Source: an uncultured Pleomorphomonas sp. (GTDB lineage Bacteria > Pseudomonadota > Alphaproteobacteria > Rhizobiales > Pleomorphomonadaceae). From it: 47,992 nucleotides of DNA. The position numbers and the translations under genes are program-made. Of this stretch, positions 35,025-36,470 are shown piece after piece. The notes beneath the pieces were generated by a model, which saw only the letters and a program-made list of their open reading frames with translations, was not told the origin of the DNA and made no database searches. Each line of letters begins with the position of its first letter. The stretch's first letter is position 1. The stretch is from contig CALMMQ010000006.1 of NCBI GenBank assembly GCA_937868725.1, positions 1 to 47,992 of the forward strand. Reading direction: 5' to 3'.

Positions 35025-35673
35025 GAAAGCCTCGATTCGGGTTGCGTCGGAGCTTCGTAACGAAGTCGATACAACGCCGGATCAAGGCTGAAAATCAAGA
35101 CGGTCTGCGCCTAACCTCATCGTGGAAGCGATGGAAAGGTGGACCCGAGGTCGAGACCGTGCGACCTCGGGTCCGTTCGTCCGGAGTATCGACGCCGCGC
35201 CAGGGAACCGAACAACCCGTTGTGCGGATACTCCGAACCGTCGACAGACCGCCGCAAATACGGTCGCCGACGACCAACCCGGCGGAAGGCCGTGGCCAGC
35301 AGCCACATGACGGCGCTACGGAGGCATCGCCGCTGGTGGGCTGGCAGCTGCCGGTCATCCGGCACGCGGTTGGAGATTAGGTTCCATAATATCCATTATG
35401 CGAATCGCAATCCGACCTGAATGAGATCGGCGGTCGCGGTTCGCCTGTGGCGTTGGGGGCGTCGTGACGCCCACCCTGCCAGGCCTCGCTCGAGGCGTTG
35501 CCTAGGCAATGAAAAAGCACCGGTGATGTTCCGGTGCTTTTCCAAGAACGGTCAGTCAGCGGGAACGTTTTCCGAACGGGAGACATTCGGCGACCGACTG
35601 GACTGGTTCATGGACCTGACCGGTGTTCGGTTTCCGGTCAGGGGCCATTTCCTCAGGCCGGCCTAGTTCGGCA
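35025..35673. other. 649-bp non-coding, palindrome-dense region
   Basis: No believable gene, although several frames stay open because stop codons are rare. It holds a series of inverted repeats: GGACCCGAGGTCG (35141-35153)/CGACCTCGGGTCC (35162-35174); CGGAGTATC (35182-35190)/GATACTCCG (35227-35235); GTGGC-CAGCA-GCCAC; palindrome GGCAGCTGCC; CATAAT (35385-35390)/ATTATG (35395-35400); GGGCGTCGTGACGCCC (35457-35472); TTGCCTAGGCAA (35498-35509); and the terminator at 35513-35541. An uncharacterised structured RNA or a palindromic repeat cluster are both possible. Confidence 0.6.
35513..35541 (-). terminator. Bidirectional intrinsic terminator downstream of the YNPSGTGD gene
   Basis: AAAAGCACCGG, loop TGATGTT, CCGGTGCTTTT. 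The stem GCACCGG (35517-35523)/CCGGTGC (35531-35537) is flanked by A and T runs on both sides, so it can act in either direction. On the minus strand the U-run is TTTTTC. Confidence 0.85.
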
Positions 35674-36012
35674 TCACTCCATGCGGTCGCCGGTGCCCGA
35701 CGGATTGTAGGTCAGCTTCGTCGAGTTGTGCGTGCCGATCAGCACGGCTTCGTCAGCGGCGGCGGCCTTGGCGTTGGCCGAGTTGGCACTCACCTTGATC
35801 GTCTGGATGACGTCGCCGGTGCCCGACGGATTGTAGAAGGTGACCGTCTTGGTCGGGCCGGCGACCGGAGCGGGCGCTTCGGCGGCGGCGGACGCGGCCG
35901 GAGCCGGCATCAGATAGTCACCGGTACCCGACGGATTGTAGACAAGTTCACCAGCGCTGGCGAGAGTGGGAAGAGCGATCGCAGCAACGGCAGCAAGAAG
36001 GACGGTCTTCAT
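35674..36012 (-). CDS. Small exported protein with three YNPSGTGD motifs, unknown function
   Basis: A 112-residue protein. Residues 1-20 are a clear signal peptide (MKTVLLAAVAAIALPTLASA, cleavage before GEL). The mature protein of about 92 residues contains the octamer YNPSGTGD three times, at 25-32, 60-67 and 102-109. The motifs are separated by an Ala/Pro-rich stretch (about 36-53) and by a segment ending in NSTKLT. The motif DNA is a 25-nt direct repeat (35917-35941, 35812-35836, 35686-35710), identical in two copies and 23 of 25 in the third. There are no cysteines. AGGAGA stands 7 nt before ATG 36012; the longer open frame to 36180 is not needed. I recognise no family; a periplasmic or secreted binding or structural role is only inference. 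Confidence 0.82.
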   Translation of the reverse strand: MKTVLLAAVAAIALPTLASAGELVYNPSGTGDYLMPAPAASAAAEAPAPVAGPTKTVTFYNPSGTGDVIQTIKVSANSANAKAAAADEAVLIGTHNSTKLTYNPSGTGDRME

Positions 36013-36470
36013 TTTAGGTCTCCTATCACAAATCAAGTCGAAAGCTTGTGGATCAACACGGCTTCGACCCGGAAGGTCTTTCGCGGTACGGCAGCTTGGC
36101 TTGATGTTCCGGTTCGAAGTCGCGCTGTCGATGACTAGATATTTGGAGCAAGATCGATCACGTTGAAAGGCAGCGCTCATGACGTTCCTGCGCCATGTTG
36201 TTGAACAGTGATCGCGAAGACGTGTGCGGTTGCGTGATTGCTGCGGCGCCTAACTTCGCTACAGTTGTTTCCGCGGTCGCAACGCATTGGCGATAGCACG
36301 CCGATTTCAGGCTGTTGTCGTGCCCCTGCCCCCGGCGACGATCGTTTCCAGATCCGGTCACGCCGTTCACGCCGGGGCTGGCCGCGGCAGAGCAACAGGT
36401 GATGCCGCAATGATCGCGCGGCGATCAATCGGGCGTGATAGCTGAAATTGTGCGGGAAAACCGTTGCCGA
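36013..36470. other. 458-bp intergenic region; promoter and leader of the YNPSGTGD gene
   Basis: No gene. On the minus strand the leader of the YNPSGTGD gene has a hairpin at 36037-36068: GTCGAAGC pairs with GCTTTCGAC (one bulged base), with GTG/CAC inside, just upstream of the ribosome site. The part 36180-36470 also serves as the 3' region of the ClC gene; no clear terminator was recognised there. Confidence 0.5.

Follow-up and report, generated by a model that had tools for sequence, protein, structure and literature searches.

The window analyzed here, the whole 47,992-nt stretch of DNA, carries a gene for a small exported repeat protein that belongs to an unnamed family; its host lies in the Pleomorphomonas group, and the family counts 70 distinct members at E < 1e-5, a few of them incomplete at contig ends. 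Comparison of the sequences establishes the family, its distribution among the sampled genomes, its promoter, and a homogenization confined to a repeated tag of 8 to 12 residues. What marks the three-copy members in this comparison is the copy-to-copy identity of a motif that itself varies between paralogues and species. We propose, as the best explanation and with somewhat less than an even chance of being right, that the exported protein shows one recognition loop multivalently.

The coding sequence (35674..36012, minus strand, stop included) opens with ATG at 36012 and encodes a 112-residue protein of the Sec-exported type. Its predicted signal peptide (residues 1 to 20; 35953..36012, minus strand) ends in an A-S-A site preceding residue 21, and an A-x-A site near residue 20 (residues 15 to 26) is found in 69 of the 70 members. 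As described in the initial annotation, the 20-residue signal peptide is followed by three exact YNPSGTGD octamers, or tags, at residues 25 to 32, 60 to 67, and 102 to 109 (35917..35940, 35812..35835, and 35686..35709, all on the minus strand). Shuffling of the mature chain produced any 5-mer three times in only 4 of 20,000 cases, so the three octamers are not due to chance. The accompanying claim of 25-nt DNA repeats was confirmed as well, with copies 2 and 3 identical and copy 1 carrying two changes, both synonymous. Between copies 2 and 3 lie an Ala-rich stretch, NSANAKAAAADEA (residues 77 to 89; 35746..35784, minus strand), which by eye is the counterpart of NANAAAAKADAARYA in the alignments of relatives, and an IGTH box (residues 92 to 95; 35728..35739, minus strand), an instance of the [IVLF][GAST]TH box, or TH box, present in 64 of the 70 members. 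Cysteine occurs in a single member.

The gene has a ribosome binding site, AGGAG, at 36024-36020 (36020..36024, minus strand), and its putative 5' leader RNA (36013..36132, minus strand), the start of which was placed from the -10-like site, forms a more stable fold than shuffled versions of it do (z -2.82). Downstream stands a terminator-type hairpin of 14 pairs with a U-rich 3' arm (35510..35544, minus strand; z -3.89). The ribosome site and the folded leader had both been anticipated; as for the "strong terminator," the hairpin is there, but it is absent from the list of the consensus terminator scan. The view of a free-standing unit with export signal, leader, and terminator hairpin is supported. 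In Rfam, nothing reached the cut-off over 35400-36400, and the sole match, to the AdoCbl-II riboswitch at 35506-35589 on the plus strand (18.3 versus a threshold of 36.5 bits), is probably a chance match over the terminator hairpin. A longer alternative frame of 168 residues starting at 36180 is unlikely, since the family promoter would then fall on its start and inside the frame itself.

A single-sequence search with the window protein recovered, from relatives in the genus, small proteins of the exported kind that share 38 to 48% identity with it over parts of the chain, the best match independent of any profile going down to E 6.7e-6 in a genus relative; two further rows (G005 and one in G009) were unrelated proteins. 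Two profiles were used, A1 from an alignment of 15 and a wider one, A2, which includes the window protein and matches it at E 2.0e-20. In the named genome collection, A1 retrieved 11 loci, of which 8 are labeled Pleomorphomonas, 2 come from MAGs labeled "Proteobacteria bacterium," and 1 comes from Oryzibacter oryziterrae. At E <= 0.05, A2 matched in 18 of the 20 genomes of the bacterial family Pleomorphomonadaceae; one of these matches (G004) was false and came through the signal peptide, leaving 17 genomes, namely, all 14 of the genus (host included) and 3 of the 6 others. Wider samples of the order, the class, and the phylum gave no true family match beyond Pleomorphomonadaceae, with about ten or twelve candidates scored per genome, a depth at which distant relatives may be missed. 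In the order sample, 16 of 397 genomes matched at E <= 1e-4, all of them Pleomorphomonadaceae, and three extra matches obtained with A1 at E <= 1e-3 were substrate-binding proteins of other families, brought in by their signal peptides. The class sample yielded the host genome only (1 of 385), and the phylum sample yielded the host genome and a porin (2 of 398), the latter matching falsely, again through its signal peptide.

The initial annotation had taken YNPSGTGD as the family signature and the basis for a profile search. The search for homologues did lead to a family of 70 members, but the octamer itself was found in none of the other 69 collected; since its letters vary among members, a profile built on YNPSGTGD only would miss the family. 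The second member in the host genome (G000:C63:60303-60761) carries YDPNAGSND three times. Two other genomes hold many matches (13 in G018 and 9 in G010), partly as arrays of single genes with broken copies among them. Broken or shortened members were seen at L097:3118-3335 and in short frames of L092, L093, L095, and L112, and at least one of them follows a promoter site that is still intact, which points to rapid birth and loss of genes. In the draft genomes G013, G016, and G012, contigs break in or just before family genes; because draft contigs end within or by such genes, member counts are lower bounds. Two distant relatives, L078 (G002) and L048 (G001), bear WDPANSTRDR-type tags and are devoid of the TH box; GTCATCG is present in their upstream regions, where the CGTGA element was not seen.

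The tags begin with an aromatic residue, followed by D, N, or E and then by P ([YFW][DNE]P type), and their letters are otherwise not conserved (e.g., YDPAEGEF, WDPADSTF, and FDPAARDN). Counting motif copies per homologue, as had been suggested, gave three tags in 24 members, two in 40, and one in 6 (three of these six ending at contig edges), albeit by this pattern and, outside the window protein, with letters that differ from YNPSGTGD. When every three-copy member was included (24 in all), the 8-residue cores were 0.865 identical between the copies of one protein versus 0.436 between proteins at the same position. None of 10,000 permutations reached 0.865 (highest, 0.575); the permutation ignores relatedness, and the comparison of copies within a protein with same-position copies between proteins does not depend on it. 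All three tags are identical in 9 of the 24 members and at least two are identical in 19. Similar values were obtained when each tag set was counted once (18 sets; 0.856 within versus 0.417 between), for the 13 type I members (0.878 versus 0.579), and for ten representatives chosen by hand (0.875 versus 0.365), the last being our own choice, whereas the 24-member count takes every three-copy member. In the five types measured, tags are 0.83 to 1.00 alike within a protein and flanks 0.00 to 0.33, with one exception at 0.58, and the type I members that were examined cease to be alike at the tag borders. Type I spacers align between species; thus, the triplication is older than the species and the tags are younger. 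The 40 two-copy members are mostly not homogenized (mean identity within a protein, 0.57), and the two-tag cluster type (28 members, 13-residue core) has 0.41 within versus 0.65 between, so that the multivalent showing of one identical loop is not a family-wide rule.

Whether the motif had spread recently or is held very tightly was initially put as an alternative; probably both apply, as copies have been homogenized and synonymous codons have drifted. Where type I tags agree in residue, 182 of 261 codons are the same (0.70 versus 0.57 if independent), and codon identity exceeds the independent expectation in all six types, so that copying at the DNA level accounts for some of the likeness. 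A 24-nt identity joins copies 1 and 3 of L009, whereas copy 1 of the related L004 and L011 reads FEPSDGTF; this homogenization looks like a short conversion. Together with the identical DNA of copies 2 and 3 in the window gene, these traces would suit a scenario devoid of selective meaning, in which biased gene conversion homogenizes the copies of a fast-evolving orphan family. We consider that scenario improbable: in the type I members examined, the resemblance does not extend beyond the tags, codons at agreeing residues still differ synonymously, and the occurrence of the family in 14 of 14 genus genomes, with its own promoter, argues for function. Short conversions combined with selection on the residues are the best fit for the tag pattern. 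The 25-nt repeats of the window gene could also point to repeats acting in DNA or RNA instead of protein, which is highly improbable given that the residues are retained in relatives even where the codons have in part changed.

Most members are single genes, and the promoter and transcript start that they have in common are present before each of these genes separately. Upstream regions have a common layout, i.e., GTCA or TGAC, 17 nt, CGTGA, ~12 nt, a CAAAT- or TATAT-like sequence, and TCATCG. In the window, the predicted family promoter and leader start (36123..36185, minus strand) were recognized at E 1.2e-6 by a model, R1, trained without the host genome; its elements on the minus strand are GTCA (36183-36180), TTT (36168-36166), CGTGA (36162-36158), a -10-like CAAAT (36145-36141), and TCATCG (36134-36129), the role of each being putative. 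The model was built from 33 sites of other genomes. Of the 70 upstream regions, 11 fell outside the pattern used to find the sites. Also excluded from training were L098:2321 (a site inside a neighboring gene), L098:1598 (deviating), sites nearly identical to others, the second host-genome gene, and the window gene, whose spacing the pattern did not cover. In the host genome, two sites are significant: one precedes the window gene (E 1.2e-6), and the other precedes the second member (E 3.2e-5). The site ranked after them has an E of 0.149. Throughout the 20 genomes of the bacterial family, 68 sites were found at E <= 1e-4, 59 of them less than 260 nt upstream of a detected family gene, 8 cut off by contig ends, and 1 before a broken member; six contig-end sites were read, of which three are followed by the opening codons of a family gene before the contig stops and the others end within 30 nt. 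As training sequences and close relatives of them make up many of the 68 sites, the independent evidence lies in the host genome and in the finding that no other kind of gene follows the sites. Conversely, 59 of 71 listed family genes have a site, in a list that counts each gene once and omits matches weaker than 4.2e-5. No site was detected at E <= 0.01 in the three genomes of other genera that have members. The EcfG-type promoter pattern, GGAAC..CGTT, and the TTGAC..TA...T pattern each occur in 0 of the 70 upstream regions, three of which are shorter than 300 nt.

In 24 relatives, the transcript start can form a GGCAGCG/CGCTGCC stem with 98.2% of cells paired and 3 pairs changed on both sides (in one sequence each). 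Only 1 of 500 shuffles attained this pairing, and when the stem was slid along the alignment, 27 to 69% of cells were paired. The count covers neither the type I leaders nor the leader of the window gene, and for the latter the predicted fold is another, longer stem. The anti-Shine-Dalgarno sequence ACCTCC often occurs in the loop of the 5' hairpin (L083, L091, and others). Judging from its sequence, it could pair with the ribosome site, and self-regulated translation is possible.

Structure prediction, also suggested at the outset, gave a hairpin with the tag at its turn in repeat 2, but from weak models and in one segment. The AlphaFold2 model of the window protein, made with 51 sequences, is poor overall (mean pLDDT, 56; pTM, 0.27), and only residues 51 to 80 are fair (block means of 71 to 80); there, strands 54 to 61 and 68 to 75 form a predicted beta-hairpin with P62-D67 of tag copy 2 as its turn. 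A Foldseek search with a weak model returned nothing significant (8 rows; best E, 5.7). The model of a three-unit type III relative (mean pLDDT of 46, no residue at or above 70) has regular strand-tag-strand-helix units.

We infer from these data how multivalent display might work. In three-copy members, whose tags are alike within one protein and unlike across paralogues and species, each tag would form the tip of a beta-hairpin, and the same loop shown three times would bind one partner multivalently, possibly a surface polymer or a protein. If the partner changed, all copies would have to follow, by short gene conversions that selection fixes, and paralogues would then be variants for different partners. 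The family as a whole is lineage restricted and consists of small Sec-exported proteins, each with one to three short tags. The ligand- or surface-binding role suggested at the outset is likewise putative. Against display, the models are weak, the predicted hairpin comes from one segment, and no binding partner or functional clue was evident among the five neighbors of the window gene tested in Pfam (SAICAR synthetase, DUF2585, CLC channel, LigB, and LacI type). The strand-tag-strand-helix units of the low-confidence type III model, and the Ala-rich, nearly Cys-free chains, might instead suit a homotypic building block, in which like tags would pair within or between chains to form a fiber or matrix and paralogue tags would keep assemblies apart; such like-with-like pairing needs copies that match within a protein. 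However, there are only one to three tags per chain, the tags are polar turns and not sticky strands, and no fibril family matched at the cut-off (best, FapB at E 0.11 and 12.1 versus 190 bits), which makes a building block quite unlikely.

An export signal, small size, like cores of 8 to 12 residues with unlike flanks, and many paralogues would likewise be expected of a multi-copy peptide precursor, the chain being cut outside the membrane so that each like tag gives the same signal or bioactive peptide, and paralogues yielding different peptides. The models for this reading are the Phr propeptides of Bacillota and the fungal KEPs. According to PMC11343458 and PMC9765709, the Phr propeptides of RRNPPA quorum sensing are Sec-exported and can contain several like or identical short sequences, repeated pheromones of 5 to 10 residues. 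Fungal KEX2-processed repeat proteins (PMC9769878) have several short cores per exported chain and many paralogues. Nevertheless, a Phr propeptide sits beside its receptor gene in Bacillota, whereas the tag-repeat family belongs to Alphaproteobacteria and has conserved spacers and its own promoter; among the five window neighbors (Pfam), no RRNPPA-type receptor was found and no peptide receptor was evident. The KEX2-processed proteins are fungal and defined by KEX2 sites, whereas no dibasic pair flanks the three tags of the window protein. Moreover, no common protease site was seen by eye around the tags, and the spacers (TH box and Ala-rich stretch) are conserved, which would not be required of linkers. 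The genomic neighborhood offers the precursor one further argument, a Cache-domain chemoreceptor (MCP) gene upstream in 9 of 11 wide type I loci; on balance we judge a precursor unlikely.

The chemoreceptor genes deserve mention on their own. Among the 11 wide-flank type I loci, the Cache-domain MCP (L053:7463-9175, for example) is lacking in L059, and L055 ends at the contig edge. Another MCP adjoins two-tag genes in four genomes (L091, L093, L112, and L161; L091:13535-15241), and a third lies ~2 kb from the second member of the host genome (L111:10757-12814). The host genome has 22 MCP matches, none of them on the contig of the window. Other type I neighbors are also conserved, pointing to shared descent. 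Any link between MCPs and family loci is putative, and chance or shared descent may suffice to explain these arrangements.

That no family is known for the motif, as first stated, was borne out by Pfam, NCBIfam, the PDB, and the literature. Neither the window protein nor ten other members had a Pfam or NCBIfam match at cut-off, PDB sequences held no relative of the window protein (best E, 0.54), and a text search of 5.39 million papers found no occurrence of the octamer YNPSGTGD. No match was obtained by tblastn against plasmids with one other member or against phages with another. BA14K (PF07886) weakly matched a short stretch, residues 28 to 37, in one member of type I (E 0.0065); its 16.9 bits, the best BA14K score among the ten other members, are below the cut-off of 26, and the window protein had no match at E <= 10. 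DUF4148 (PF13663) comprises small exported proteins with a signal peptide similar to that of the tag-repeat family; like this family, they are small and exported, but the score in one of the ten members (9.6 bits) is far under the Pfam cut-off of 27 bits, and the window protein had no match. The tag-repeat family thus appears unnamed so far, with no description found in the databases and literature searched.

Exported proteins whose tag copies evolve together, within the bounds of the tag, would report what the tag touches. The 24 three-copy members represent 18 tag sets and the promoter marks most family genes, so that it can be tested in one genus whether conversion or selection for matching keeps repeated motifs similar. 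A more far-reaching idea, which we consider rather doubtful, is that the three-copy branch constitutes a private repertoire, each paralogue exporting, under a shared promoter and leader, its own triplicated sequence, uniform inside the protein yet free to diverge among paralogues and species. If true, this repertoire would be a form of bacterial recognition or signaling (self or kin tags, peptide signals) for which no description was found in the databases and literature searched. In these soil and plant-associated bacteria, the tag-repeat family may expose a new exported recognition, signaling, or matrix system.
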